This document shows, in pieces, positions 2,010 through 63,071 of a DNA stretch of 64,000 nucleotides. Origin of the DNA: a virus; IMG/VR virus record IMGVR_UViG_3300050821_009780, positions 62,001 through 126,000 of that record; one strand, 5' to 3'. The notes beneath the pieces were generated by a model, which had not been told where the DNA came from, did not search any database, and worked only from the letters and a program-made list of their open reading frames with translations. The position numbers were made by a program, and so were the translations under genes. The first letter of the stretch is position 1. The number at the start of each line of letters is the position of its first letter.

Positions 2010-2041
2010 ATTTTACTCGCTGACTTGGCTTGAGTCAAGTC
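2010..2041 (-). promoter_or_regulatory. Promoter with palindromic -35 element
   Basis: On the minus strand TTGACT (2033-2038) and TAAAAT (2010-2015) are 17 bp apart, a good sigma-70-type promoter. The -35 box is inside the near-perfect 20-bp palindrome GACTTGACTCAAGCCAAGTC (2022-2041), shared with other promoters here. It also encodes the last codons of the upstream gene: the -10 box contains that gene's TAA stop. Confidence 0.85.
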
Positions 2042-5456: not shown

Positions 5457-5504
5457 CTTGGCTTATACCAAGAGTATAGGACTAGACTTGGCTCAAGTCA
5501 AGTC
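5457..5504 (-). promoter_or_regulatory. Promoter with two palindromic operator-like sites
   Basis: Minus-strand TTGACT (5496-5501), 17 bp, TATACT (5473-5478). The -35 lies in the 20-bp palindrome GACTTGACTTGAGCCAAGTC (5485-5504). A second inverted repeat, CTTGG-6-CCAAG (5457-5472), covers the expected transcription start near 5466. Two sites placed over the -35 and +1 are a classic repressor layout. Drives the gene at 4600-5418. Confidence 0.88.
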
Positions 5505-5830: not shown

Positions 5831-5862
5831 AGATTACTTATCCGCTTGGCTTGAGTCAAGTC
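5831..5862 (-). promoter_or_regulatory. Promoter with palindromic -35 element, leaderless start
   Basis: Minus-strand TTGACT (5854-5859), 17 bp, TAATCT (5831-5836). The -35 is inside CTTGACTCAAGCCAAG. The start codon of the driven gene (5821-5823) begins 7 bases after the -10 box. It overlaps the last codons of the upstream gene (LDSSQADK). Confidence 0.82.
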
Positions 5863-6148: not shown

Positions 6149-6558
6149 CCGTCCTCCTCGTCGCCGCGGAAGACCCGGCCCTCGGCGGACAACCGCAGCG
6201 ACTCCTGCCGATCCTTCGCCAGCGCCTTCGCCTGGGCGGGGGAGACGTTGCCGCTGCACACCATATCCATGTACCGGTGCGCCGGGGTCTCCCCGCCCAG
6301 GTCCAGGGTCAGCTTCAGCAGCGCGCAGGGCTGCTCCTGCACCAGCGCGCAGGCGGTGACCGCGCCGGAGAAGCTGCGGCCCTCGGAGGGGCTGTCGAAG
6401 AACACCACCGGGTCGATGCCGCGCAGCCGGACGACCTCCGGCCGGGGCACCGGGAGCGTGTGGGCCTGCGGGCTGTCGGCGGACGTGACGATGCAGCCGT
6501 GCGGGAACAGGCGGTCGAACATCGCCTGGTACTTGCGGGCCTGCTCGGGAGGTTCCAT
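6145..6558 (-). CDS. Hypothetical protein (137 aa)
   Basis: Not recognised. ATG 6558 shares one base with the stop of the giant protein (TGATG). The protein begins MEPPEQARKYQAMFDRLFPH and contains a conserved-looking core (VVRLRGIDPVVFFDSPSEGR) followed by helices. No motif assigned. Because it directly follows the giant protein it could be a partner or chaperone, which is only inferred from position. Confidence 0.75.
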   Translation of the reverse strand: MEPPEQARKYQAMFDRLFPHGCIVTSADSPQAHTLPVPRPEVVRLRGIDPVVFFDSPSEGRSFSGAVTACALVQEQPCALLKLTLDLGGETPAHRYMDMVCSGNVSPAQAKALAKDRQESLRLSAEGRVFRGDEEDG

Positions 6559-9500
6559 CAGAACGGCGGACCTTCCCCTCCAGAAACAGCAGCATCCTTG
6601 GCTTCCTGAAGGGTATCGAAGGTACCGAGGTACTCAGTGCCATCGTAGGTCATGTAGCCCCCGTACGTGGCCTTCTCGACCTGCAGATCGCCGTTCTTCC
6701 AGGTGGGGTACGCCTCGCCGCCGCCCTTCACCCAGTTGAGGTCGGTGATCTGGCCGAGCAGCTCGCTGACCGTCGGCGGTGCGGCACCCGTCTCCTGGGC
6801 GGCCTGCTGCGCGGCGGCCTGGCCGGACTCGGCGGCCTGGGCGGACGGCTCGGTGGCCCCGGTGTACACCTGGGACTCGGCGAGCGGGTCGAGCAGCTCG
6901 GGGTGCGCGGCGAGGTTGGCCTTGACCTTGTCCACGGACGCCTTGCCGATGTGCTGGACAATCCTATCCTCGACGGGCAGGTAACGGATCTCGGTGATGC
7001 CGTGGTTCTTGAGGTAGGCGATGAGCTCGGCCCGGTCTTCCGCGTAGGACGACTGGACCAGCTCCACGTCGTCGAGCAGGGACAGCGCGTCGGAGATCAT
7101 GGTCTCGTTGCTGCCGCCGCTGTACTTGCGCCACACGTCCGGGTTCCAGTGGGCGTCCTTGCGCCGGTAGACGCCCTCGGCGCTGTACCCGCCCTCGCTG
7201 TACGGTATCTGGTTGCCGAAGTAGTCGTTGTCGTAGGAGTAGTTCCGGGTCCGGGCCAGGGTCAGCGGGCTGAACACGGCGGCGCGGTTATCGGTCACGT
7301 TGAGCCGGGTGAACACGTAGCCGGGGCCGCCGGACTCGTACGGGTTGCCGAGGCCGCCGGCCTCCGTCCCGGCCACCCGGATGAGGGCATCCTTGCCGTA
7401 TGACCCGCCTGCCTTGACGATGTAGGACGCAGCACTGCCGCTGCTGGACTGCCTGATGGGCATGGGCAGGCTCTTGACCTTCGCGGCCAGGTCGAACCGG
7501 TACCAGTCGGGCTTGCCGCCGACAACCGCCGGAGCGGTAGGGTCGAAGTGCTTCTGCCGGGGGAAGAAGCCGCCGCGCTCGGCCCAGTCCGCCACCTGCG
7601 CGGGGGAGGTCAGGGTGGCGAACGCGTCGCGGTACGCCCGCACCTCGGCCTGCGGGTCGGCCTTGCCCAGCGTCTCCAGTGCAGCGATGATCTTCCGGTG
7701 CTCGTTCTTGCCCGGCTTGGCGCCGCCGACAACCGGGTACGCCGTGCCCAGCCTCTCCTGCAGCACCTTCCACACCGGCTGGTCCTTGCTGTCCGCCCGA
7801 TCGTTCATGACGGACAGCAGGTGCCGCCAGTAGAACAGCTCGAAGTCGGGCACCTCGGCCTCGCGCATGTCCAGTCCGGCGAGCTGCAGGGCGGCGCGGA
7901 CGCGCTCCAGCGACGCGGCGCTGCCGTCCTTGCTGGTGAACCGGACGCGGCCCCAGTGGGAGACCTTGACGCCGGTGTCCTGGCCGTCGCCGAACTCGAT
8001 CTGCTCCCCGTCCGGCAGGGTCATCCGCCAGAACTTGCCGGGGTCCTGGTGCGCGCTGGTGTAGCTACCTGGGTTGAACTCGCCGGTGGTCTCGTCGATG
8101 CTGCCCTTGTCGTGCTTGGAGGCGGTGCCGGCCTGCAGCTTGATGCCGAGCGCGGACAGCTCATCCTTGACCTCGGGCTTGGGGGTGCTCTTCGGCAGCC
8201 AGCGGGGCAGATCGCCCTCGCCGAACCCGAACGAGCCTGCCTTGGCGTCCAGCACAGCCGCGATGTGCGACAGGTAGGTCTGGGCCATGTCGAGCAGGTT
8301 GCGGGACTGCTGAACCCCTGGGTCGGTGCTATCCGGGTGGGCACCGACCACGGCTTCTGCCGCCTGCTGCACCAGCTGCAGCTTCTGCTGCACCTCGGCC
8401 ATGGCGTCGAGCTTTCCCTGGTTGTACTGCCCGTCGGTCTTGTGCATGGTGACGCTGCGGGCCGCCGTGATGATCGTGTTGTAGTAGTTCTTTTCCCCGG
8501 CGAGGCCGCCGCGGTCGGGCGAATCGTACGGGGCCTTGCCGGGGCCGTAGCTGTCAGCCGGGTAGCTCACGGTGGTGTCGTCGGCGGGCGCGGCGTCCTT
8601 GCCGCTGTGGCTCTTGAGCCAGCCGATGACCTTGTCGTAGGCGGTGCCCTTGAGGAACGTCTCCCCGTGGGTGACCTTGGCTCCCTGGCCGTCGTTCTGC
8701 TGCCAGAGCAGCACGTGCATATCGCGCAGCTCGGGGCCGCCGAAGAACGCGGGGACGCCGTGGCTCTTGGCGGCGGCGACGTGGTCCAGCAGGCCCGGCT
8801 CGCTGAACCCGGAGTGCAGCGGGGCGCCGTGCGCGTCGGGGAGCCGCTGGACCGGGACCTCGGGCAGCCCGGTGACGCTGCCCTGCTTCAGCACCGGCTT
8901 GTCCGGGGGCAGCGCCTGCCATGCCTTGAGCGCGGCATCCAGGATCGCCTGGTCGCGGGCGGCGACGGTCTTGCTCTCGCTCTGCGCGAGGAGCTGCTTC
9001 GCCTCCTCCAGTGCCACCCATTTCGTCTGCTCGGTCTCCCCGTTGTCCAGCTCCGGGGTAGCGACCGCGCCCTCGGCCTTGGCCAGATAGAAGTAGGAGG
9101 TGGACTGGGTGCCGGTGAAGGCACCGGGCACGTAGCCGACCGGCTGGTACCTGGCGCCCATCTCCTCGGCGGTCTCCCGCACGGCGGCCTGCAGGGAGGT
9201 CTCGCCCGGATCGGCCCCGCCCTTGGAGAAGCTCCACGCGGTGCTGTTGTAGTGGTTCTTGACCTCGCGCAGCTGCACCTGGCCCTGATCGTTGAACACC
9301 ACCAGGCCGTAGCGGGGGTTGTGCCCGGGGGCATCGCCCCACGGGCTGCTCTTGCCGAAGTCGGAGGAGGCCCCGGCGTACCCGGCGTCCTGGTAGACCT
9401 GCGCCCACAGCTTGGTGAAGTCGTCTGCGAGGCTGTTCTTGCGGCGCAGCACCTCGTCGATGAGCGCCTGCCTGGACCCGAGGGAGCCGAACTTGGTGCG

Positions 9501-12500
9501 GTGCGCGAAGCCCTGCTCCAGGATGTTCTGCACGCTGGCGTCGGACACGTTCTGAATCTTGCGCGCCTGCTGGATGACCTGGAGGAACGCCTGGTCGGCA
9601 GCGTCCTTGGTGACCTGGTGGTTGCGGATGCCGTCGTACAGCCGGGTGTAGACGAGCTGGGTCATGGTGTCCATGGCGCTGGTGCCGGCCAGGCCGGGCC
9701 AGTCCATGTTGCCCCAGGCGCGGCCCTTGTCGATGCCGGCGATGTGCCCGTCCGGCGTCTTGATCATGTTGTTGGCGGAGCTGTCATCGTTGGACAGCAC
9801 CCAGTCGAGCAGGTGCTCGGACGCGATGTCGGCGACCTGCGCGGGGGTGAACGCGGACCAGGGCGGCAGGTCGGTGTAGTAGCCGAGCGGCTCGCCGGGG
9901 ATGGCCTTCTGCGCCTGCACCGGGCTGCCGCCGAACGCGGGGTCGGTCAGCAGCTGGGACTCGGCGGTCCGGAACCCGAACAGCTTGCCGAGCCGGTTGG
10001 CGGCGTGCTCCTGCTCCAGCCGGAACAGCCCGCCCCCGGCGCTGCTGGAGGGAGGCGCTGGCTTGACGTACCAGGTGCTGGTCTCCCCGGTGTAGGGGAT
10101 GGTCCTGGTGGCCTTCCACACCTCGTGCCCGTGGCTGGGCATATCCCCCGTGGGGATCTTCTTCCACACCGGGACGGACTGCTCGGCGACGGCCTTGACG
10201 TGCTCGTTATCGAGCCACTTCTGGATCGCCTGCTTCTTGTAGAAGGTGTAGTCCAGGACGTAGGCGAGGGTGTTGCCCATCTCGTCGGCGAGCTGCTGGA
10301 GGTAGGGGGTGACCTCGGCCTCGTGGTCGTCGGCGAACGCCTGCACAGCGGTCTCGGACCACTCGTCGGCGGGGGTGCTCGCCTGCACGTACGCGTCGTA
10401 GGCGTTGGCTGGCTGGAGGCCGTCGGTCCAGACGGGCGGCTCGGTCTTGGGAGACTGGCCCTGGCCGAACCGGTCGTTCGCGGTGCCGGTGAGCTGGTCC
10501 ACCGCAGCCTGGTCGTGGCCGCGGTGCGCCTTGACGACCATCTCCCGCTCGTAGGGGTACAGGTGCTCGGCGTGCTGGAAGCCCATTTTGATCAGGTAGT
10601 TGGCGACCTCTGCGGCGGGAAGGTTGGCCAGCCCGGCGGAGGACCAGGTGCCGGGGATGTCCTGGCTGGCCGGGACCTGGTGCGGGTCGAGCGGGGACCA
10701 GGTGACCTGGTGGGTTTCCGTGTTGTCCGGGGCTCCGGGGTGGGCGGGGGAGACCTTGCCGCCCTTGGCGTCCAGCTCGAAGACAGCCTTCATGTCCCCG
10801 GCCTTCCACGCCTTGGCCCACAGCAGGAGATCGTAAGCCGACAGTGAGGACAGGTGCGTGCCGACCACCTGGCCCTTGCCGAACTGCTGGGAAATGTCCT
10901 TGATCTTGGCGATGGTCTCAGTCTTGGTGCCGAGCATCCCCGAGTCGGGGAGGAACCCGGTGTAGGGCTGCGCCCAGCCCTGCGGGGTGAAGGTGAAGAT
11001 GTCCTTGGCAGAGGTGACGCCCTCCGGCATGGTCTTCAGGAAAACGGGGCCTTCGGACTTCTCTGCCTTGGCCGCCTTAGCCGGGACTGCGCCTGGTTCG
11101 ACCTTGCTGACCTCCGCGCCCTCCGGCAGTCCGGGCACGGCGAGCAGCTCGGTCAGCAGCCCGGTGACTGCGGCCTTCTGCTTGTCCCCGGTATCCCCCT
11201 GGTGGTCGGCCATGAACTGCTTGCCGAAGCCCTTGTAGCTGTTCCACTTGACGAAATCGTCCCCTGCCAGGAACTTCTGGAACTCCGGGACGAACTGCAG
11301 TCCCGGGCTGTTGTTCAGCGTGTCGAGCAGCGCCTGAATCTCGTCCCTGGTCTTGATATCGCTGCCCCAGATGTGGTAGCCCGTCGGCTTGGTCCCCGGC
11401 TCGACGACGGTGGTGCCATACTTGTCGAGTACGGTCCCGGACTGCATGAGCGCGTCTACCGTGTAGTCCGGGACGACATTCGGGGCGGCCCCGTCGTTGG
11501 ACTTCCACTGGGCGCTGCCATCGCTGAAGACGACAAGCTCCCCCGCTGTTTCCGGAGCCTTCCCGGCGCCGCTCCACAGTTTGAGGTCACTGGCAGGAGC
11601 CAGCACGGTGGCGTAGGCGACCTGGTCCGGGGGCTGCCCCGCCTGCGGGAACGGGACGCTTGAGTACTGGGTGGCCTTCTCCAGCTGCTTCGCGGCGGCG
11701 GCCGGAGTCAGCTCCTTGCTGCTGCCGTCGGTGGCGAAGTAGATGTACTTGCCCCACGCCTTGGTGCCGTACTTCCAGAAGTCGGAGTTGTAGCCGCCGA
11801 CCTTGACGGGCTGCACGTGCAGGTAGGACTTGCCCTTGGGGTTCTTCCAGTACCCGGCCCCGAACAGCTTGCCGTCCACGTTGACGGCGGCGGGCACGAC
11901 GTTCGCCTTGACCGCCTGCAGCAGCTGGTCCTGCAGCTCGGGCGACGGGGCCGCCAGGTCCCCGCCCTGCGGGTGGTAGGACACCTCCAGGGTCAGCGGG
12001 TTGACCTTGTAGTACTCGTCGGTGCTGCTCTGCAGGTACCCGCCGTGCCAGTTGCCGTACTCGTGCGAGATGTACTCGGTATCGCTGCCCTGGCTGCCCT
12101 TCTCGGCCAGCTTGTAGGCGGCGGCGAGCAGCCAGGTCGGGAAGAGCTTTTCGCTGCCGTGCTCGCTTATCGCCTGCCCGGCGGTCATGGCCCCGAACGA
12201 GACGGTCTTCAACGCGTCGGCGACCTCCTTGCCGTGCGCAGCCTCCTCGACGGACGGCGGCTCCTTCGGCGTCAGGGAACTACCGTTCAGGTCCTTATCG
12301 CTGACGTAGTACGACGGAGCCTTCTTGACCTGAGTGTTACCGCTGTAGCTCTGGATGTACCACCACTGACCGGACGGGTCGCGGGCATAGGCGCCACCGT
12401 AGGGTCCGGTCTTCTCGTAGACCACCGAGCCGGGCGGGAACTCCCCGACCAGCACCCCGCCCTTGAGGGCGGGCACGGGAGACTCGGCGGGCTTGTACGA

Positions 12501-14951
12501 CGGCTCGTCTGCCGGGATAGGGACCGGAGACCCTCCTGGCCCGAGTCCGGGTGCCTCCGGCTCCGGAGCAGCAGGCGGCTCCTCGGCGGGCTTGACGCCC
12601 TGCTTCAGGTAGAGCAGCACCGACTCCGGCTCGCGCGGGAACAAGGTGCCGCCCGGGGCGTGCATGAGCACCCGGTGGTCCGGGGTGACCTCGTAGAACA
12701 GCTCGCCGGGGGCACCGAGGGTGCCCTCAGTCGGCTTGGAGGTGGTGGTCTCCCAGCTGCCGGCGTCGTTCTTGTAGAGGTACTGCTTAGTATCCAGCGC
12801 GCTGGTGTAGACCAGCAGCCGGGCCAGGTGCTGGGCCAGGGTCGTCGCCTCGTGCGGGTTGTAGAGATCTGTCGGCTGAAGGTCGGTCAGCTTCTCGTCG
12901 ATCTCCTTCCACTGCGGGTTCTTCTTCCACTGCGCCGCCGTCGCCCAGTCCGGCAGCCGGGCGGCGGCGGACGGCTCGGGGGCCTGCTCCGCAGCGGCCT
13001 GGGACTTATCCTGCGCGGCCTCGGTCCCGCCCTGCGGCTCCAGCCAGATGTGCACAGCATTCCACAGCAGCGTGTCGGCGCTGGTCGGCTCGCCGCCGAA
13101 CATGTCGTGGTAAGTGGCCTTCAGCTGCGGGGTGACCTTGTAGTACGGCACACCATCTGGAGCAACCGGCTGGACTCCGAACTGGCCCGCCACGGGCGTC
13201 GTATAGTAGTCCTGGCCGAAGTCCGCGGCGTTCTGCGCGGCCTTGGCCATGGCACCATACGCAGTGCTGTACCAGCTCTTCTTGATGTTGCCGTTCTTGG
13301 CCAGGTCGTACAGCTCGGCGGCCTCGGTGTGCCCGGTGGCGTCGTCGGCCTTGGCGAGCAGCCCGGCCTTCTCGGTCAGCGCGGCGATGAACACCGTCTT
13401 GGCGTAGCCGAAGTGCTGCTGCTTGGTGCCCTTCTGCTGCGGCAGGTGCTCGGTATCGGGGTGCTGGTCCTCGTAGGCGTGGATGACGGCCCAGTAGTCG
13501 GACTCGGCGAGGGGGTTGCCCTTGGCCTTGAGCACCTGCTTGATCGCGGTGGACTTGGCGGCGGTCAGCGCGTCCACCGCATCCTGCACCTGCTCGGCGG
13601 TGGCGGTGACCCCGCCCAGCTCGAAGGTGTGCGGGGTGAGTAGCTGAGCGTGCTCCGCCTCGGCCTGCACCTTGTCCTGGGCGGCCTGCAGCGCATCCTG
13701 CTCGGCCTCGGTGTGCGCCAGGTGCGCGGCCCGCCCGGCCAGGTGGTGGATGACCGCCGACTTGACCTGCCCGACGTGCTCCTTCTTAGTGCCGGGAGCG
13801 ACCTTCAGCTCGGGGTGCTTGCTCAGTTCCTGCTGAGCTACCTGGTGGTAGTCCATCGCTGCCAGCGCGTGGCCGGCCTTGGCGAGGGGCTGCTTGACGG
13901 CGGTGGACTTGTCGTCCTGGAGGATTTTCAGGGCATGCTGGATCTCGTCCTTGGTGACGGCGAGCGGCGGGCCCTCCTTAGCAGCAACCTCGGCCTTAAG
14001 CTTGCCGGGCTGGCTCTCGCCAGGGACGGGCAGCGGCGCGTGCTGCTCCGCCTGGTCGTCGTCCGGGACAATGGCACCAGCCTTGAGCCAGGCGTCCTGA
14101 TGCTGCTCGGCTGGCTCCTTAACCACCTCGCCGCTGTGGAGCACAAGGTGCCAGGCACCTTGCGGGTCCTTAGCCCACTTGCCGTGCAGGTTCTTATCAT
14201 CCGCGTTGACTGCCTTGTAGACCTTCCAGTCAGCGGGTACCCAGGCGGCGTGCTTGCCGTTAAAGCTGACCGATTTCTGCGGCGGTGCCTCGTCCAGCTT
14301 CTTCCAGTGCTGGGCGAGGATCTCCTGAGCGGTCTTAGCGGTCGGCAGGGCCGACGAATCGGCCGGGTGGTCCGAGTGGAACAGGACGTGCTCGGCAGGC
14401 TTGCCGTCCTGATCCTTCTTGACGATAACCTTGGGCGCGGCCTTGACCGCCGCCGGGTTGTGCACGTCGGTGCTGTTCGGCACGTGCACATCGAGGTCCT
14501 TGTGCACGGCGAACTCGTGGTTGCCGGACTGGACCCACTTGTGGGTGCCGGCCTCGACCGCCTGGTGCGCGTCCTTGTCGGCCTTATCCGGGTCCTTCCA
14601 CTGGTTGGCGACCCACTTGGCCTCGGAGGTGTCGTAGATGAAGTGCGACGGAGCGCCCTTGACGTAGTGGGCGGTGCCGCCGTGCGCCTCGGAGGGAGCG
14701 TGCTGCGGGTGCGGGATGATCAAGCTGCCGATGGGGGCCTTGTAGAACGCCTCGCCGAGAGCGGAGGCGACCTTCTTCGGCGGCCCGTGCTGCCCCTGCA
14801 GCCCGGCAGCCTTCTGCGCGGCATCTTGGGCAGCCTCGGTGGTGGCTGCGGCCTGCTGGGCGATGGTGGCCCCGGGCAGCGCCGCAGCGGCGGGGTTGCC
14901 TGCCAGGTAAAGCAGCCCGAGCGTCAGGGCCTGCTGCTTCGTGAGGGCCAC
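6558..14951 (-). CDS. Giant multi-domain protein (2797 aa) with kinase-like and Nudix domains
   Basis: Start GTG 14951 with GGGGAG four bases upstream. The N-terminus has a module (HYVKGAPSHFIYDTSEAKW, about residues 92-110) also present in the zeta-domain protein. Helical repeats of about 80 residues begin near 330 and 449 (TKDEIQHALKIL, TAEQVQDAVDAL), with a weaker copy near 1200. Short Y-Y-K-V-x-P units recur. Residues about 1620-1850 resemble the HipA/PI3K-like kinase fold (VLSNDDSSANNM, GHIAGIDKGRAWG). Residues about 1880-1990 hold a complete Nudix box (GGADPGETSLQ, VRETAEEMGA). The C-terminal 700 residues are unassigned. It lies among head genes after the MuF-like gene and before the protease, so it is probably a virion protein carrying enzymes into the host, as described for polyvalent proteins. 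Delivery is inference. Confidence 0.85.
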   Translation of the reverse strand: MALTKQQALTLGLLYLAGNPAAAALPGATIAQQAAATTEAAQDAAQKAAGLQGQHGPPKKVASALGEAFYKAPIGSLIIPHPQHAPSEAHGGTAHYVKGAPSHFIYDTSEAKWVANQWKDPDKADKDAHQAVEAGTHKWVQSGNHEFAVHKDLDVHVPNSTDVHNPAAVKAAPKVIVKKDQDGKPAEHVLFHSDHPADSSALPTAKTAQEILAQHWKKLDEAPPQKSVSFNGKHAAWVPADWKVYKAVNADDKNLHGKWAKDPQGAWHLVLHSGEVVKEPAEQHQDAWLKAGAIVPDDDQAEQHAPLPVPGESQPGKLKAEVAAKEGPPLAVTKDEIQHALKILQDDKSTAVKQPLAKAGHALAAMDYHQVAQQELSKHPELKVAPGTKKEHVGQVKSAVIHHLAGRAAHLAHTEAEQDALQAAQDKVQAEAEHAQLLTPHTFELGGVTATAEQVQDAVDALTAAKSTAIKQVLKAKGNPLAESDYWAVIHAYEDQHPDTEHLPQQKGTKQQHFGYAKTVFIAALTEKAGLLAKADDATGHTEAAELYDLAKNGNIKKSWYSTAYGAMAKAAQNAADFGQDYYTTPVAGQFGVQPVAPDGVPYYKVTPQLKATYHDMFGGEPTSADTLLWNAVHIWLEPQGGTEAAQDKSQAAAEQAPEPSAAARLPDWATAAQWKKNPQWKEIDEKLTDLQPTDLYNPHEATTLAQHLARLLVYTSALDTKQYLYKNDAGSWETTTSKPTEGTLGAPGELFYEVTPDHRVLMHAPGGTLFPREPESVLLYLKQGVKPAEEPPAAPEPEAPGLGPGGSPVPIPADEPSYKPAESPVPALKGGVLVGEFPPGSVVYEKTGPYGGAYARDPSGQWWYIQSYSGNTQVKKAPSYYVSDKDLNGSSLTPKEPPSVEEAAHGKEVADALKTVSFGAMTAGQAISEHGSEKLFPTWLLAAAYKLAEKGSQGSDTEYISHEYGNWHGGYLQSSTDEYYKVNPLTLEVSYHPQGGDLAAPSPELQDQLLQAVKANVVPAAVNVDGKLFGAGYWKNPKGKSYLHVQPVKVGGYNSDFWKYGTKAWGKYIYFATDGSSKELTPAAAAKQLEKATQYSSVPFPQAGQPPDQVAYATVLAPASDLKLWSGAGKAPETAGELVVFSDGSAQWKSNDGAAPNVVPDYTVDALMQSGTVLDKYGTTVVEPGTKPTGYHIWGSDIKTRDEIQALLDTLNNSPGLQFVPEFQKFLAGDDFVKWNSYKGFGKQFMADHQGDTGDKQKAAVTGLLTELLAVPGLPEGAEVSKVEPGAVPAKAAKAEKSEGPVFLKTMPEGVTSAKDIFTFTPQGWAQPYTGFLPDSGMLGTKTETIAKIKDISQQFGKGQVVGTHLSSLSAYDLLLWAKAWKAGDMKAVFELDAKGGKVSPAHPGAPDNTETHQVTWSPLDPHQVPASQDIPGTWSSAGLANLPAAEVANYLIKMGFQHAEHLYPYEREMVVKAHRGHDQAAVDQLTGTANDRFGQGQSPKTEPPVWTDGLQPANAYDAYVQASTPADEWSETAVQAFADDHEAEVTPYLQQLADEMGNTLAYVLDYTFYKKQAIQKWLDNEHVKAVAEQSVPVWKKIPTGDMPSHGHEVWKATRTIPYTGETSTWYVKPAPPSSSAGGGLFRLEQEHAANRLGKLFGFRTAESQLLTDPAFGGSPVQAQKAIPGEPLGYYTDLPPWSAFTPAQVADIASEHLLDWVLSNDDSSANNMIKTPDGHIAGIDKGRAWGNMDWPGLAGTSAMDTMTQLVYTRLYDGIRNHQVTKDAADQAFLQVIQQARKIQNVSDASVQNILEQGFAHRTKFGSLGSRQALIDEVLRRKNSLADDFTKLWAQVYQDAGYAGASSDFGKSSPWGDAPGHNPRYGLVVFNDQGQVQLREVKNHYNSTAWSFSKGGADPGETSLQAAVRETAEEMGARYQPVGYVPGAFTGTQSTSYFYLAKAEGAVATPELDNGETEQTKWVALEEAKQLLAQSESKTVAARDQAILDAALKAWQALPPDKPVLKQGSVTGLPEVPVQRLPDAHGAPLHSGFSEPGLLDHVAAAKSHGVPAFFGGPELRDMHVLLWQQNDGQGAKVTHGETFLKGTAYDKVIGWLKSHSGKDAAPADDTTVSYPADSYGPGKAPYDSPDRGGLAGEKNYYNTIITAARSVTMHKTDGQYNQGKLDAMAEVQQKLQLVQQAAEAVVGAHPDSTDPGVQQSRNLLDMAQTYLSHIAAVLDAKAGSFGFGEGDLPRWLPKSTPKPEVKDELSALGIKLQAGTASKHDKGSIDETTGEFNPGSYTSAHQDPGKFWRMTLPDGEQIEFGDGQDTGVKVSHWGRVRFTSKDGSAASLERVRAALQLAGLDMREAEVPDFELFYWRHLLSVMNDRADSKDQPVWKVLQERLGTAYPVVGGAKPGKNEHRKIIAALETLGKADPQAEVRAYRDAFATLTSPAQVADWAERGGFFPRQKHFDPTAPAVVGGKPDWYRFDLAAKVKSLPMPIRQSSSGSAASYIVKAGGSYGKDALIRVAGTEAGGLGNPYESGGPGYVFTRLNVTDNRAAVFSPLTLARTRNYSYDNDYFGNQIPYSEGGYSAEGVYRRKDAHWNPDVWRKYSGGSNETMISDALSLLDDVELVQSSYAEDRAELIAYLKNHGITEIRYLPVEDRIVQHIGKASVDKVKANLAAHPELLDPLAESQVYTGATEPSAQAAESGQAAAQQAAQETGAAPPTVSELLGQITDLNWVKGGGEAYPTWKNGDLQVEKATYGGYMTYDGTEYLGTFDTLQEAKDAAVSGGEGPPF

Positions 14952-16187: not shown

Positions 16188-16476
16188 GCTGCGGATGATC
16201 GCCCGACGCCGCCTCGTAGGCGGCGTGCAGCTGCTCGTACTGCCGATAGTCCACCCGCCCGGAGTGGAAGGCGCTGTTCACCTCGCCGAAGCTGCCCGGC
16301 GGCGGCAGCTCGCCCAGCTGCCCGATGGCATCGGCGAGCCTGGTCTGGAAGGCGGTCTTGCCGGCGGCGCGGGGCCAGTTCATGCCGCGGACCTGGGCGC
16401 AGGCTTCGGCGAGGCTGATGCGCCCGTTCTCCAGGTCGTCGAGCAGCGCGGACAGCCGCTTCTCCTGATCGCTCAC
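16153..16476 (-). CDS. Hypothetical helical protein (107 aa)
   Basis: Not recognised. GTG 16476 sits in a GTGA overlap with the stop of the zeta-domain protein. Reads VSDQEKRLSALLDDLENGRI, then ACAQVRGMNWPRAAGKTAFQ and YRQYEQLHAAYEA. Helical throughout. Position between two head proteins suggests a small virion or assembly role. Confidence 0.7.
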   Translation of the reverse strand: MSDQEKRLSALLDDLENGRISLAEACAQVRGMNWPRAAGKTAFQTRLADAIGQLGELPPPGSFGEVNSAFHSGRVDYRQYEQLHAAYEAASGDHPQRDPGGAEPQRP

Positions 16477-19022
16477 GGTGCCCCCGGAGACTCGATGCCG
16501 GCCACCACCATGGCCGCCTTCCATGCATCCTCGCTGAACCCCGGCTCCGTGCTGGCCTGCTCGCGGACAGCATCCAGATCCAGGTCGTCCATCCCCGTGC
16601 CGGCGGTCATAGCTACCTGCCCCTTCTCCGCTGCCCGGGCCTGCGCCTCGGTAGCCCCTACGTACTCCATGATGTGGTAGTCCGGGTGATCGAACTTCTC
16701 CGTGTTCCAATCCGGTGCGGCCAGCGCCGGGTCGAACGGGAAGACCTGCTTGTCCCGGAACCCGAGCGACGCGTACAGCTTGGGCAGCACGGGACCGTAC
16801 GCCTCGATGTAGTTCGCCCCGTGCTCACTGACGGCCAGCCTGAGCAGCGCCAGCCCGGTGCCCTTATCCCCGGAGGTGTTGAACAGCCCGGTCGGCTCGA
16901 TGCGCCCATCCTTGTGGTCGTGGATGAGTATCCCGGCCTTCCCGCCGGCTGCGAGGATAGCTGTCATGCCCGCGTTCCTGATGTCCGCTGCGGTGTAGTG
17001 GTTGACGAAGGCACTGTACGGGCTGCCCTCGAATGCCTTGTTGAGCGTGCTCGCGAACTCCTCGGGGCTGGCCAGCCGAGTGCCGGGCGGCCCCGACCCG
17101 GCGGCGCGGGCTGCCTCCTGCGCCCGGGCCTCCTTGCTGCCGGGCTGCAGCGTGCGCAGCAGCGCCTCCACCGACGGGATGCCGGCGGGCACGGACGGCG
17201 CGGACTTCTCCGCCAGCCTGGGCGCGGTCCCGTTGTTGTCCCAGAGCTGCCAGTCGGCGAACCGGGACTTCAGCGCCTCGAAGACGAGCTTGTTGCGGGT
17301 GATGCCGCGGACGACCTCCTGGGAGCGGATCAAGTCGGGCGGCACGTACCGGCCGCCGAGCGGATCGCGTCCCTCCCGGTAGGCTTCCAGGCCCTGCCGG
17401 TAGCGCTTAGCGGCGCGCTGCACGGCCCGTTCCACCGGGCTATCCACGAACACGCCGCGAGTGGTGTACCCGTGCTGCTCCAGGGCAGCGAGGCGCTGGG
17501 AGACGCTGGCCTCGTCGGCCATGGTGATATCCCAGGCGATGTTCTTGCCGCGCTCGGCCAGCAGCCGGGCGGCCTGGTCGGCCAGGTAGGACGACTCGTC
17601 GTGCACCAGCGGGGAGGCTTCCAGCGGGGACAGCCCGGCGACCTCGGGGACCAGCCCGCGCCGGGCCAGCTCGGCCTTGAAGTCGTCGGGGTTGACGACG
17701 GCGTAGTCGCGCAGGCTGATGTCCGGGATCTGCTTGAGCACGGTGGTCTTGCCGGCCCCGCCGAGCCCGCCCATGACCAGCGCCCGGTGCTCGGACGGCA
17801 CGGATACCTGCCTGGCCAGGAAGTCCTGGAGGATCTGCTGGTGCTCCAGGGCGCGCTGCGGCAGCCAGGAGTAGCCGCCGTCGCGGGAGTGCAGCACGGA
17901 GGTGGCCTGGCCCTTGCCGGCGGCGGCGTTGACCTTCTCCTGCACGTCGCGGGCGTGCACGGCGTACTGCTCGTCGGTGAGCGGCGCGTACTGGCCGGGG
18001 GCGGCCTGCCCGGCGGCAGCGGCACGGGCGGCGGCCTGCGCGGCGCGGGCGCCGGACTCGGCCTTGCGCAGCTCCCCGAGGTGGTCGCGGAGATCGGACT
18101 GCCGCTGGCTCTCCTCGCGCTGGGCGTAGCCTTCCAGCCGCCGGTTGGCCTGATCCAGCGCGGAGTCCTGGGGAGAGGGTGCCTGCTGCGGCAGCGGCTG
18201 CGGCACGTGCGCGTGCGCGTGCCGGCTGAGGGTGTCCCCGGCCAGCGGGGTGACGAACCGGGAGCCGAGGTGCGGGTGGACCGCCTGCGCGCCCGTGGGG
18301 GGCGGCGGCAGCTTAGGCGGCTCGGGCTGCACGGCCGGGTGCTGCGGGCCCTCCTGAAGCCGCTCCGCCGCGCGGGCGGCCCGTTCGGGGACGGCCCCGG
18401 TGAGGCGGCGGGTGCGGGTGGACCTGACCCCGGACTGCTTGTCGATGTCCCGCATCCGGGACTGGACGTGGGAGATGCTATCGCGGACAGACTGCTTCTG
18501 CTGGTCGGTCTCCGCACGGGGCAGCAGCTGCTCGGCGGCGGTCCGGTGCGCCTCGTGCAGCTGCTCGTAGCCCTTGGCCAGAGCGGGACTATCCGGGTCG
18601 GACAGGTGCTGGTGGGCGGCGTCCACGTGCCCGGCGAACTTCTCAGCAGACGGCTTGTCGATATCGTGGAAGCGCTGGCTGCCCCACAGCGCCTGGCCCT
18701 TCTTCGCCCACGCCTGCTGCGCGGCCAGCCACTTGGCCTGGCTGGTGTCGTCGATGACGTGGCCGGGGGCACCCTGGACGAAGTGCGGGTCGTGGCCGCC
18801 GGGGTGCGGCAGGTCGCTGCGCAGCTCGGTGTGCGCCTTGACGTGCTCGGGGATGACCTTGCCCTGCTTGGTCTTCTGCAGCCGGGAGAACGGCCGGACC
18901 TGGAAGCTGGCCAGCTCCAGCGCCTCCGGGTCGGCGGCCAGCTCCAGCGCCCGCCCGGCGCTGATCTCCTCGACCAGATCGCGGGCCAGCGCGGCCAGGG
19001 CCTCCTCGGCGGGACTGGTCAC
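16473..19022 (-). CDS. Head-region protein with zeta-type kinase and GNAT-like domains (849 aa)
   Basis: Start GTG 19022. Residues about 78-103 carry the module HFVQGAPGHVIDDTSQAKWL shared with the 2797-residue protein. A coiled, Pro/Gln-rich region follows. Near residue 417 is a P-loop (GGLGGAGKTTVLKQ) and, downstream, VVNPDDFKAEL, an Asp-rich zeta-toxin pattern, then AWDITMADEASV and RAAKRYRQ, all typical of zeta/ParT-like kinases, which in some cases phosphorylate cell-wall sugar precursors. Residues about 660-800 (ALLRLAVSEHG, LPKLYASLGFRDK) look like a GNAT acetyltransferase end. It lies between portal and MuF-like genes, so it is likely carried in the capsid. The target is unknown; no antitoxin-like partner is seen. 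Confidence 0.82.
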   Translation of the reverse strand: MTSPAEEALAALARDLVEEISAGRALELAADPEALELASFQVRPFSRLQKTKQGKVIPEHVKAHTELRSDLPHPGGHDPHFVQGAPGHVIDDTSQAKWLAAQQAWAKKGQALWGSQRFHDIDKPSAEKFAGHVDAAHQHLSDPDSPALAKGYEQLHEAHRTAAEQLLPRAETDQQKQSVRDSISHVQSRMRDIDKQSGVRSTRTRRLTGAVPERAARAAERLQEGPQHPAVQPEPPKLPPPPTGAQAVHPHLGSRFVTPLAGDTLSRHAHAHVPQPLPQQAPSPQDSALDQANRRLEGYAQREESQRQSDLRDHLGELRKAESGARAAQAAARAAAAGQAAPGQYAPLTDEQYAVHARDVQEKVNAAAGKGQATSVLHSRDGGYSWLPQRALEHQQILQDFLARQVSVPSEHRALVMGGLGGAGKTTVLKQIPDISLRDYAVVNPDDFKAELARRGLVPEVAGLSPLEASPLVHDESSYLADQAARLLAERGKNIAWDITMADEASVSQRLAALEQHGYTTRGVFVDSPVERAVQRAAKRYRQGLEAYREGRDPLGGRYVPPDLIRSQEVVRGITRNKLVFEALKSRFADWQLWDNNGTAPRLAEKSAPSVPAGIPSVEALLRTLQPGSKEARAQEAARAAGSGPPGTRLASPEEFASTLNKAFEGSPYSAFVNHYTAADIRNAGMTAILAAGGKAGILIHDHKDGRIEPTGLFNTSGDKGTGLALLRLAVSEHGANYIEAYGPVLPKLYASLGFRDKQVFPFDPALAAPDWNTEKFDHPDYHIMEYVGATEAQARAAEKGQVAMTAGTGMDDLDLDAVREQASTEPGFSEDAWKAAMVVAGIESPGAP

Positions 19023-19144
19023 GACTCGCTCCAGGTGCAGTTATTGCAGCACAGGAACTCCTCGCCGGAAGCTGTAACCTCGGTGCCTAGGTCAGCGCTG
19101 CCGCACCGGGGGCAGTGCTCCTCGCACTCAGCGGAATCCGGCAC
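19019..19144 (-). CDS. Small zinc-ribbon protein (41 aa)
   Basis: Short gene between portal and the zeta-domain protein. GTG 19144 overlaps the portal stop by 17 bp, and the stop overlaps the next GTG. It reads VPDSAECEEHCPRCGSADLG then EEFLCCNNCTWSES: two C-x2-C pairs 16 residues apart, a complete zinc ribbon. Function unknown. Confidence 0.72.
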   Translation of the reverse strand: MPDSAECEEHCPRCGSADLGTEVTASGEEFLCCNNCTWSES

Positions 19145-20744
19145 CGCTGCCTCCGCCCGACGGCCCCTGCCCGCTCACCGGCTGGCTGTTCCCGCCGCCT
19201 CCGCCTGCGGCGGGCTGCGGCGAGGGCACGGCGGGAGACTGGGCGGCCATGTTGCCGGCGGTGTTCCCGGCCATGACCGGCATGCCGCCCATCATCTGCT
19301 GCTGGGCCTGGTCCTGCATGAGCTTCTGCTGCTTCTCCCGGTCGGCCTTGATCTTGTCGTAGTCGATGTCGAACGCCAGCTCCTCGCTCATCCGCTGCTC
19401 CAGCTCCAGCATGAACTCAGGGGTGACGTTGGCACTCTGCCCTGCTACGGCCAGCTTGTCGAAGGTGTCCTGGATCGCGGCCTTCTGCTCGGCGGTGAGC
19501 GCCCCCCACTTGAACTCGGGGTACTTCTCGGAGCCGAAGTTCCAGTCCACGAACCGCGGGAAGATGCAGTTGTTAATGACCTCGGCCATCTCCTCCAGGA
19601 TGCCCTCCAGCATCATCATGAAGGTGGTGTCGTTCTGCTTGCCGAAGTCCACCAGGGTGGAGTCGCCCTGGCCGGCCCCCGCCCCGGAGTCGGAGTCGAA
19701 CCACTGGGCCAGCACCGACTTGGACATCTGGCTGTTGTGGTGGTTGATGAGGCCGAGGAAGTCGAACCGGGAACTGGTCTCGTTGATGGACTGCACCGTC
19801 CAGTCGGCGGACGGGACGACCATGTACTGGGCCAGGCCGAGCTGGGACAGCGCCCGGGTGAAGTTGTTCTTGTCCTGCGGGGTCGGGTTGGGCACCATGG
19901 TGCCGACCCGCAGCCCGACGGCGGCGCGCTGCGCGGCCAGGTGCGCGATGAAGTAGAGCTTTTCCTTCTTGTCGTAGTGGTAGAAGGCGCTCTCGAACAT
20001 GCTCACGCCGTAGAACGGGCGCTCGGCCTCGTCGTGGGCGAAGTAGACGGCGGTGTCCTTGGGGATCTTCACGTCGATGGTGCGGCCCTGGAAGAACGTG
20101 CGCTGCCGGAAGCCGTTCCACCGGCCCTGGCCGTCGAGCAGGAAGGTCAGCGTCTCGGCGGGGCGCCAGTCCAGGGCGCGCAGCGTGGTCTTGCCCTTGT
20201 TGGGGCCGGTCTTCGGGGTCCAGTAAATCATTTCCCAGGCGCTGAACCCGGAGAACAGGGCGAGCAGCATCTGCTTGACGAACCGGGTGAAGCTGAACTC
20301 CATGCCGCCCGCGGACGGCGGCAGGAACAGCAGATCCTTGCAGAACTGGGCTTCCTCGGTGCCGCCGACCACCCCGTCGCGGGGAATCACGTCGGAGTGC
20401 TTGAGGCTGGCGAGAATCGGCTTGGTGATGAGCCGGAACAGGGCCCGGGCCTGGCCGTCGCGCCGCCGCATGGTGACAAGCTGACGGACCGTGACTGGAT
20501 CGTCCCTGAATAGCTCCCAGCTATCCCGGTACGGAGTGGCGAACGGGAGAAAGTACGGGACACCGACGCTGAAGTTGTCCGCCTCGGGCGGCGGCTGGGG
20601 CAGGGCCTGCGCGTCCTCCAGGACATAGCCCTCCTGGCCGAACCCCTGGGACGTGACTCCCATACCGCCCGGAGGGGACAGCCGTCCCTCGGATGAGCCG
20701 AAGCCGCTACCTGGTGTCGTCACACCGAGGTAGATCGGTGCCAA
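19128..20744 (-). CDS. Portal protein, Mu gp29-like
   Basis: A 538-residue protein of the DUF935/Mu gp29 portal type: a Gly/Pro-rich N-terminus, then LFRLITKPILASLKHSDVI, a long mixed region with FSGFSAWEMIYWTP and YFAHDEAERPFYGVSMFE, and SQMSKSVLAQWFDSDSG, followed by a helical stem-like part and a Gln/Gly-rich tail. The portal is the DNA channel at the capsid vertex. Start uncertain: TTG 20744 gives the longest form; GTG 20723 and ATG 20663 are alternatives without clear ribosome sites. Gene order terminase, portal, MuF-like, protease is normal. Confidence 0.88.
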   Translation of the reverse strand: MAPIYLGVTTPGSGFGSSEGRLSPPGGMGVTSQGFGQEGYVLEDAQALPQPPPEADNFSVGVPYFLPFATPYRDSWELFRDDPVTVRQLVTMRRRDGQARALFRLITKPILASLKHSDVIPRDGVVGGTEEAQFCKDLLFLPPSAGGMEFSFTRFVKQMLLALFSGFSAWEMIYWTPKTGPNKGKTTLRALDWRPAETLTFLLDGQGRWNGFRQRTFFQGRTIDVKIPKDTAVYFAHDEAERPFYGVSMFESAFYHYDKKEKLYFIAHLAAQRAAVGLRVGTMVPNPTPQDKNNFTRALSQLGLAQYMVVPSADWTVQSINETSSRFDFLGLINHHNSQMSKSVLAQWFDSDSGAGAGQGDSTLVDFGKQNDTTFMMMLEGILEEMAEVINNCIFPRFVDWNFGSEKYPEFKWGALTAEQKAAIQDTFDKLAVAGQSANVTPEFMLELEQRMSEELAFDIDYDKIKADREKQQKLMQDQAQQQMMGGMPVMAGNTAGNMAAQSPAVPSPQPAAGGGGGNSQPVSGQGPSGGGSGAGFR

Positions 20745-20769: not shown

Positions 20770-21318
20770 CTACCGCAGCACCTGTATTTTCAGGGTGGTC
20801 GCCACCAGGACACCGGTGGTGGACTTCGCCCCCGGCTGCTGCAGGGTGAGGTCCAGCTCAGGGGCGTTGTTGGCGATCTTCTGCGCCTTCGCCGCCGCAT
20901 TCAGGATGACCTGCGGGTCGGCGGCGGCGCTGACGCCCGCGCCCGCGCTCGCGGTGGACTTGGCAGTGGAGGAAGTATTCACGCCCGCGCCCGCACTCGC
21001 GGTGGACTTGGGCCCGGCGGTGTTCACGCCCGCCCCCGCAGTCTTGGTGCCCGCTGTGTTCGGCTTGGCTGCAGCCGACGTAGGCTTGTACGGCTTGATG
21101 GCGGTCACCGTGTACGCGGTCCGGCCGACCTGGATGACGTTCCCCGGCTTGAGCGACGAAGCAGGCATAAGGCCCGATCCTCCGGCGACGTGGCCCTGCA
21201 CGTGCTGCCGGACCACCTGGGGACGGCCCCGCTCGACCCGCTGGTACATGCGGACGGGCACCGTCTGGCGGGCGGTGCCGGCCAGGCGCAGCAGCTTGCC
21301 CAGGGGAGTCTCGGTCAC
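20770..21318 (-). CDS. Hypothetical head-region protein with Ala/Gly repeats (182 aa)
   Basis: Not recognised. Codons from GTG 21318 onward have about 90 percent G or C at the third position, so that start is preferred; a later ATG at 21168 has a very good GGAGG upstream and would give 132 residues. The N-terminal part (RMYQRVERGRPQVVRQHV) and GNVIQVGRTAYTVTAI look folded; the middle repeats AGAGVNTAGPKSTAS with variation three times; the C-terminus ends beta-like (LVATTLKIQVLR). It precedes the portal gene and follows a terminator. Confidence 0.65.
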   Translation of the reverse strand: MTETPLGKLLRLAGTARQTVPVRMYQRVERGRPQVVRQHVQGHVAGGSGLMPASSLKPGNVIQVGRTAYTVTAIKPYKPTSAAAKPNTAGTKTAGAGVNTAGPKSTASAGAGVNTSSTAKSTASAGAGVSAAADPQVILNAAAKAQKIANNAPELDLTLQQPGAKSTTGVLVATTLKIQVLR

Positions 21319-21335: not shown

Positions 21336-21370
21336 CGGAAAACAAGCAGCCCCGGCGAGCCGGGGCTGCT
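21336..21370 (-). terminator. Intrinsic terminator after the small basic gene
   Basis: Minus strand: perfect 11-bp stem AGCAGCCCCGG/CCGGGGCTGCT with a CTCG loop (21345-21370) followed by TGTTTT. It begins 10 bases after the stop of the 49-residue gene and lies before the portal operon. Confidence 0.88.
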
Positions 21371-21379
21371 CCTGGGGTA

Positions 21380-21529
21380 CTAGCGCTTCCTGCCATGCGG
21401 AGTCCTCTCCGGGTTCCGCTGCGTGCGCGCCGGGTTGTTCTTCGTCCGCCGGTGCTCGGCGGCGTACCTGGCGCACTTGACGCGGTTCCTGTTGAACTTC
21501 CGGTTCTTCTTTCCCTGCTTGTGGGGCAT
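21380..21529 (-). CDS. Small basic protein (49 aa)
   Basis: ATG 21529 with AGAGGA directly upstream; stop TAG at 21380. It reads MPHKQGKKNRKFNRNRVKCA, then YAAEHRRTKNNPARTQRN and ends GRKR. Very basic with one Cys. Short basic proteins of this sort (MPHKQGKK...) recur near head genes in actinophages. It may bind nucleic acid. Both flanks are terminators, so it is a separate unit or is read through. Confidence 0.75.
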   Translation of the reverse strand: MPHKQGKKNRKFNRNRVKCARYAAEHRRTKNNPARTQRNPERTPHGRKR

Positions 21530-21609
21530 TTCCTCTCACCCCCTCTCACATCCGGTCCTAGGACTGGGGTGTGAGATGGCGCAGAAGAACCACGGCCCCT
21601 CCTCTCGAC

Positions 21610-21646
21610 AAGAAACAGCTCCCGCCGGGGGTGCGGCGGGAGCTGT
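21610..21646 (-). terminator. Strong intrinsic terminator ending a short transcript
   Basis: Minus strand: perfect 13-bp stem ACAGCTCCCGCCG/CGGCGGGAGCTGT (21615-21646), loop CACCCC, then TTCTTG. It sits about 70-100 bases downstream of the promoter at 21720-21747 with no gene in between. Confidence 0.9.
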
Positions 21647-21713
21647 CGGGCTGCAGGCGGTTGCCCGCAGCGGGGTTGTGGACGGCCGATGCAGCTGACA
21701 AGGCTGCTAGCCG
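21610..21713 (-). ncRNA. Candidate short structured RNA or leader
   Basis: From the expected start near 21713 to the terminator is about 100 bases without a usable open frame. The transcript has a hairpin GCTGCGGGC-AACC-GCCTGCAGC (one wobble pair) right before the terminator hairpin. It does not fold as a tRNA by eye. It could be a phage sRNA, an antitermination (put-like) leader of the head operon, or an attenuator. Confidence 0.5.
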
Positions 21714-21719
21714 CCAGCC

Positions 21720-21747
21720 ATACTACCGGACGGTTGCCTCAAGTCAA
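21720..21747 (-). promoter_or_regulatory. Promoter of the short RNA / head region
   Basis: Minus-strand TTGACT (21742-21747), 16 bp, TAGTAT (21720-21725). The -35 lies in GACTTGACTTGAGGCAAC, a shared element whose right arm is less conserved here. It overlaps the end of the gene at 21739-22023. Confidence 0.78.
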
Positions 21748-22023
21748 GTCGGTCATGGTCCCGGTCTCCACGCCGCCGGTGACGACATCGTGGCACAGGC
21801 AGAGGCAGCCCGAGCCTTGCGGCGGCTCCTCGCCCTTGCAGGCCGCATGCAGGTGACGGGCATATTCCGGCTTACTGCCAGTGAGCTTCATGGCGTCCTG
21901 GCAGGTGAGGCTGAGCCTGCTGTTCGCCGCTATCCGGTGCGCCTTCTGGAGCTGCCGGGCCAATATCTCCTCGCGGAGCCTGCGGCGCTCCAAGATGGTC
22001 ATTCCCCGCCGGAAGCTAGGCAT
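21739..22023 (-). CDS. Hypothetical protein (94 aa), Cys-rich C-terminus
   Basis: Not recognised. Start ATG 22023 (MPSFRRGMTILERRRLREEI). Helical and basic at first, then LSLTCQDAMKL and HAACKGEEPPQGSGCLCLCH, a cluster of Cys and His that may bind metal. Ends within the next promoter. Overlaps the upstream gene by 8 bp. Confidence 0.7.
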   Translation of the reverse strand: MPSFRRGMTILERRRLREEILARQLQKAHRIAANSRLSLTCQDAMKLTGSKPEYARHLHAACKGEEPPQGSGCLCLCHDVVTGGVETGTMTDLT

Positions 22024-22670: not shown

Positions 22671-22690
22671 CTTGTCTTGAGACAAGTATA
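22671..22690 (-). promoter_or_regulatory. Palindromic operator-like site with possible -10 box
   Basis: CTTGTCTCAAGACAAG (22671-22686) has perfect 7-bp arms. Upstream on the minus strand it touches TATACT (22685-22690), so the site would cover the start of transcription, as at 5457-5472. No good -35 is seen for that box, so the promoter call is weaker than for the others. Confidence 0.55.
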
Positions 22691-51407: not shown

Positions 51408-51439
51408 AGCCTAGTCACTGACTTGGCTCAGGTCAAGGG
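51408..51439 (-). promoter_or_regulatory. Promoter with palindromic -35 element
   Basis: Minus-strand TTGACC (51431-51436), 17 bp, TAGGCT (51408-51413). The -35 is inside CCCTTGACCTGAGCCAAGTC (51420-51439). A further CTTGG half-site lies at about 51399, near the expected start of transcription. Drives the DUF932-like gene and those after it. Confidence 0.82.
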
Positions 51440-63038: not shown

Positions 63039-63067
63039 ACCCTAGTCCTCGACTTGGCTGAAGTCAA
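63039..63067 (-). promoter_or_regulatory. Promoter with palindromic -35 element
   Basis: Minus-strand TTGACT (63062-63067), 17 bp, TAGGGT (63039-63044). The -35 is in GGCTTGACTTCAGCCAAGTC. The expected start is near 63032, about 38 bp before the sigma-like gene. Confidence 0.82.
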
Positions 63068-63071
63068 GCCT

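Follow-up and report, generated by a model that had tools for sequence, protein, structure and literature searches.

A uORF-containing leader as a putative translational control element of a small basic protein gene carried by large soil phages

Upstream of the portal gene of a large phage, a promoter, a structured RNA and two terminators surround one small gene, which raises the question of what this arrangement controls. The first-pass annotation had offered two answers, a phage noncoding RNA or antitermination in the service of the head genes. We analysed the locus within a window of 64,000 nucleotides (bases 62001–126000 of a 143,503-base IMG/VR virus record; GC 68%), and from its composition and promoter type we would guess at an actinobacterial host.

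Transcription unit upstream of the portal gene

On the minus strand the elements follow one another in the order promoter, structured RNA, terminator 1, uORF leader, gene for a 49-residue protein, terminator 2 (Table 1). The promoter, the frameless RNA with its hairpins and strong terminator, and the small basic gene with a second terminator before the portal had all been called in the first-pass annotation and are present. Two elements had been overlooked. One is an extra gene, starting at 21318, that lies between terminator 2 and the portal gene (19128–20744; phrog_113, E 4.7e-30) downstream of the unit. The other is a uORF-hairpin leader (21606–21523, minus strand), a conserved regulatory RNA located 3' of terminator 1 and, judged from its sequence, the translation leader of the small basic gene.

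Table 1 Features of the small-gene unit
Feature	Positions	Strand	Details
Operator-like element CTTGACTTGAGGCAA	21734–21748	−	Overlaps −35; exact match to element of promoters 2038, 5501 and 5859
Promoter TTGACT-16-TAGTAT	21720–21747	−	Putative transcription start near 21713
Hairpin GCTGCGGGC/GCCTGCAGC, 5' RNA	21650–21671	−	9 bp
Terminator 1	21607–21647	−	14-bp stem 21647–21614, loop CACCCC, tail TCTTGTC; −28.5 kcal/mol
Shine-Dalgarno (SD) of uORF, GAGAGGAGG	21598–21606	−	
uORF	21558–21593	−	11 codons, GTG start, TAG stop, peptide MVLLRHLTPQS
Hairpin H1	21544–21576	−	TCTCACA 21576–21570 with TGTGAGA 21550–21544; uORF stop in loop; covaries over 25 loci
SD of small gene, GGGGGTGA	21536–21543	−	Can pair with uORF bases 21576–21566 or codons 1–3
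Gene for 49-aa basic protein	21380–21529	−	ATG at 21529 to stop; conserved phage family
Terminator 2	21337–21371	−	12-bp stem, hairpin 21371–21344, tail GTTTTCC; similar hairpin follows most family members

Within its 5' region the promoter is the top site, with p 0.01 when compared with shuffles. Counting it, four promoter-like sites in the 64-kb window reach 12 bits or more; by itself this number is at chance, since shuffled windows yield 1–6 such sites. All four lie on the minus strand with TTGACT as the −35 hexamer. The four share an over-represented element, CTTGACTYRAGSCAA, matched 22 times in the window, where 4.6 ± 2.2 matches are expected, and 23 times in the full 143.5-kb record, where the reversed control gives none. 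This places the promoter at 21747 within a set of operator-like sites. A family of palindromic sites near CTTGGCTYRAGCCAAG occupies window positions 2024–2039, 5487–5502, 5845–5860, 21733–21748, 22671–22686, 51422–51437 and 63053–63068, with about 15 members in the whole record, some over the −35 and others between −35 and −10. They look like putative operators of a phage repressor, and their spread is comparable to that of the stoperators of cluster A mycobacteriophages.

Further observations concern the genes beyond the unit. A near-identical sequence, GGCACCGATYTNYC(Y)CGGTGTGAC, spans the GTG starts of the pre-portal gene (21336–21314) and the portal gene (20742–20719, both minus strand); it occurs in two copies only, which differ by a one-base indel, and both GTG starts are without a Shine-Dalgarno. 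The 849-aa protein encoded after the portal (16473–19022, minus strand) contains a zeta-toxin/AAA kinase domain (PF06414, E 1.6e-18) and has a weak minor-head-protein match, and a 2797-aa protein (6558–14951, minus strand) contains a NUDIX-like segment.

The RNA ahead of terminator 1

The RNA from 21713 to 21606 folds at −62.1 kcal/mol (z −7.7 against shuffles) and contains a 5' hairpin, the 9-bp hairpin 21671–21650 and the terminator hairpin. A T-rich tail follows three of the 22 strong hairpins of the minus strand (21647–21614, 21371–21344 and 1654–1617), two of which flank the small basic gene. The gap of about 20 nt between terminator 1 and the uORF is too short for another promoter, so the small gene must be reached by read-through, and we infer that terminator 1 is partially read through. 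Conservation of this terminator is weak, comparable hairpins 5' of the leader being found in a minority of relatives. L023, a contig that is close to the window at the terminase and the 94-aa upstream gene, carries a strong terminator in the corresponding position and lacks the small gene and its leader; terminator 1 may therefore merely end the terminase transcript. Further relatives of the 94-aa gene were sought and none was confirmed.

The same stretch could be a separate small RNA, a discrete product of about 100 nt ending at 21610 and possibly 6C-like, with the small gene read by leakage only; such an RNA would possibly act via the C-rich loop CACCCC, which is complementary to GGGGTG. We regard this as quite unlikely. 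The promoter, the stable fold without a reading frame and the strong terminator would suit it, as would the retention of the hairpins and strong terminator in L023, and with 6C RNA (RF01066) the window RNA shares two GC-rich hairpins and a C-rich terminator loop. However, the covariance match to 6C, full-length and covering 21674–21610, scores 37.4 bits against a curated cut-off of 47, and comparable sub-threshold matches arise in non-actinobacterial control genomes. The first hairpin loop, AACC, is not C-rich, and on this and on the score the window RNA falls short of the 6C family. At the gathering threshold Rfam gave no match in the window, nor for the L023 stretch at the same place. Pairing of the upstream hairpin loop with the SD of the small gene, considered as a general rule, reached p < 0.05 in just 3 of 25 loci and was discarded. 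Conservation gives the noncoding RNA proposal no support, the 100-nt stretch not being conserved in relatives.

Distribution of the leader and the small gene

Searches with the 49-aa protein recovered 19 and then 32 viral contigs, together with one contig of a metagenome-assembled bacterial genome. When three exact leader patterns were run against 2.9 million viral contigs, the small gene was present on 6 of 6, 8 of 8 and 11 of 12 matched contigs, the sole match without it being a 4.3-kb contig. Gene and leader were also jointly present or absent across 20 large contigs of the window's portal family, as they are together in the window's own record: 19 contigs carry neither, and in the one that carries both, about 20 kb separate the small gene from the portal gene. 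Elsewhere the neighbours vary and include terminases of different families, another portal family, major capsid protein E, RecE/RecT-like genes, a Ro60-like gene and tRNA arrays. By these sequence comparisons the uORF leader and the 49-aa gene are a mobile cassette among otherwise different large soil phages, and only in this phage does it sit beside the portal gene.

In one of its two answers the first-pass annotation had tied the region to the head genes, and this is not supported: the cassette is absent from 19 of the 20 portal-family contigs and has different neighbours elsewhere, and hence appears not to be part of head-gene control. The corresponding mechanism, in which a put-like first RNA or the basic protein lets polymerase pass terminator 2, appears highly improbable. 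It is true that the next gene starts 18 nt past the tail of terminator 2 and that this gap contains no sigma-70 promoter, and in L023, which has the same layout, a strong hairpin immediately precedes the homologous GTG start; but the sigma-70 scan leaves room for late promoters of another type. A put RNA is about 70 nt long with two stem-loops near an early promoter, and polymerase then reads through downstream terminators. The window region resembles the HK022 put RNA (PMC9378689) in having two hairpins shortly after a phage promoter; it differs in that the second hairpin is itself the T-tailed terminator, there is no sign that it serves downstream genes, and no shared sequence was shown.

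Some observations on other loci were made in the course of these comparisons. Weak model matches at portal genes of relatives, considered as possible leaders before other genes, were rejected as a different SD hairpin; this distinct SD-sequestering hairpin lies right before the start codon (L027:2675–2744, L041:4042–4113, L054:4396–4466, L056:441–533). A Ro60/TROVE homolog lies 5' of the small gene in L086 (3–1589; tested in this contig), with homologs in L094 (72–1868) and L095 (1445–3232). The 5' RNA of exactly these three contigs shares GGCTCTCCGC..CAGGCGCCTGG..CGTGATTCC, perhaps a Y-RNA-like element. For the window a Y-RNA link via Ro60 was rejected, the TROVE gene being absent from its record.

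The 49-aa protein has a pI of 12, with K or R at 18 of its 49 residues, and is modelled at low confidence as a single helix. Its family has no PHROG or Pfam match, and solved structures gave no match to the protein. Three members of the family, used as protein queries against phage and plasmid records, returned nothing credible, a result to be read with the BLAST low-complexity filter in mind, which may hide basic proteins. A nucleotide search of phage records was likewise without a match. In L114 (around 2983) the small gene has no in-frame ATG, GTG or TTG start; where the usual spacing from the Shine-Dalgarno would place the start there is an ATT codon.

Leader architecture and proposed control

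In 25 non-redundant members the leader has a common order, consisting of an SD, a uORF, H1 with the uORF stop in its loop, a second SD directly behind and the gene. The leader is absent from the diverged members L123 and L133. A short uORF with its own Shine-Dalgarno precedes the regulated gene at all 25 loci; it is 9–11 codons long in 24 and 18 codons in the remaining one. The best SD/start pair is in frame with the H1-loop stop in 25 of 25, where chance would give one third for each. The stops are UAA (13 loci) and UAG (12), never UGA, whereas at these loci UGA terminates 65% of the long genes and half of the small genes. Either the release factor or the loop structure could account for this rule. 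Coding bias is weak in codons 2–5 of the related uORFs, with 29 third-position differences against 19 and 18 at the other two positions. The uORF is probably translated. A programmed frameshift or bypass of the T4 gene 60 type was rejected, as the frame between uORF and gene is inconstant and 0, 1 and 2 all occur.

Hairpin covariation in related phages had been put forward as a check in the first-pass annotation; the stretch between the promoter and terminator 1 is not conserved, and the hairpin that covaries, H1, lies downstream. The two H1 types misalign, and MAFFT with RNAalifold recovered just 4 pairs; an alignment-free arm-swap test was used instead. Over the 25 loci the H1 arms pair at −18.8 kcal/mol with their own partner and −10.6 with a swapped one, and SD and anti-SD at −9.6 against −8.2 kcal/mol, with p 2e-4 in each case, values that are optimistic because the loci are related and not independent. 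Pairing of uORF codons with the start codon in a closing helix gave p 0.16 in this test and was dropped. Against shuffles the leaders have a mean z of −3.4, and 23 of 25 fall below −2. Most relatives sequester the gene's SD with a dedicated anti-SD that immediately precedes the start codon; in most, too, H1 itself does not hold the SD, and the anti-SD hairpin begins about 17 nt behind the uORF stop. The window leader is the weakest of the set (z just −0.8) and is without an anti-SD before the start codon. It has two near-equal folds, of −21.8 and −21.2 kcal/mol, each sequestering the SD, either by pairing of the uORF arm TCTCACaCCCC with GGGGGTGAGA or by pairing of codons 1–3 with GGGG. SD sequestration, as expected of a leader-peptide translational attenuator, is significant across loci; in the window it is provided by two alternative folds only.

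The uORF, the in-frame loop stop, H1, the SD pairing, the specificity for one gene and the promoter family can all be seen in the sequence. What we infer from them is a switch, and its direction, by which translation of the uORF would set expression of the small gene. On balance we favour the reading that the leader acts as a translational attenuator or coupler of the small gene and its uncharacterised basic phage protein, although by no wide measure of certainty. The locus would then form a transcription unit of its own, devoted to one small basic protein and with two levels of control. Transcription would start at the promoter under the operator-like site and would have to pass the strong terminator-type hairpin 21647–21614, an attenuation step present in a minority of relatives only. 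Ribosomes would load at the good Shine-Dalgarno, translate the 11-codon uORF and end in the H1 loop. With the uORF untranslated, the gene's SD would be held in structure; a ribosome at the uORF stop would melt H1, and either the freed SD or short-range reinitiation would allow translation of the gene. Terminator 2 would close the unit. In most relatives it is not obvious that the terminating ribosome would open the anti-SD hairpin, given its distance from the uORF stop, and since H1 does not hold the SD there, reinitiation may outweigh simple melting.

The main rival, which we consider unlikely, is autoregulation, in which the basic protein acts on its own leader and the uORF is secondary. The very basic composition and predicted helix of the protein fit this, as does the constant co-occurrence of leader and gene, with no other gene preceded by the leader; the UA common to the H1 loops is a candidate binding site. 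Outside this loop UA, however, the sequence of H1 is almost wholly variable, and the uORF keeps its SD, its start codon and its frame in 25 of 25 loci, which binding alone would not demand.

Attenuation by the leader also invites comparison with known systems. In the LEU element of the actinobacterial leuA leader peptide, leader-peptide codons pair with the downstream SD (PMC1262725). The window leader is similar in its short leader ORF, in codons able to pair with a downstream SD, in its alternative folds and in its high GC; it differs in having no run of regulatory codons and in serving one phage gene. The cassette family as a whole differs in the stop fixed in a hairpin loop and in the separate anti-SD of most members. 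The erm-type translational attenuators, which are drug-resistance leaders, are the functional archetype (see PMC5118997). Like these, the cassette has a uORF with its own SD and hairpins hiding the SD of the regulated gene; unlike them, it has no known inducer or arrest motif, its loop stop is never UGA and a small basic phage protein is encoded downstream. Within the open-access literature, we know of no LEU element or erm-type leader whose stop codon has a fixed place in the loop of a hairpin.

UAA and UAG are the stops read by release factor 1. A more specific and very doubtful version of the attenuator is a termination-gated switch, in which the uORF would be selected for UAA or UAG in the loop and the rate of termination or recycling would decide whether the SD opens.

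By its distribution, the apparent head-gene control region is an inserted cassette. It pairs a conserved, probably cis-regulatory RNA with a protein, both new to the libraries searched (Rfam, PHROG and Pfam gave no match, and no phage record was similar), and may offer a compact, testable case of uORF-controlled translation in phages, with a uORF stop that lies in a hairpin loop and is never UGA. Were the termination-gated reading true, the phage would sense the translation-termination state of its host to dose the small basic protein.
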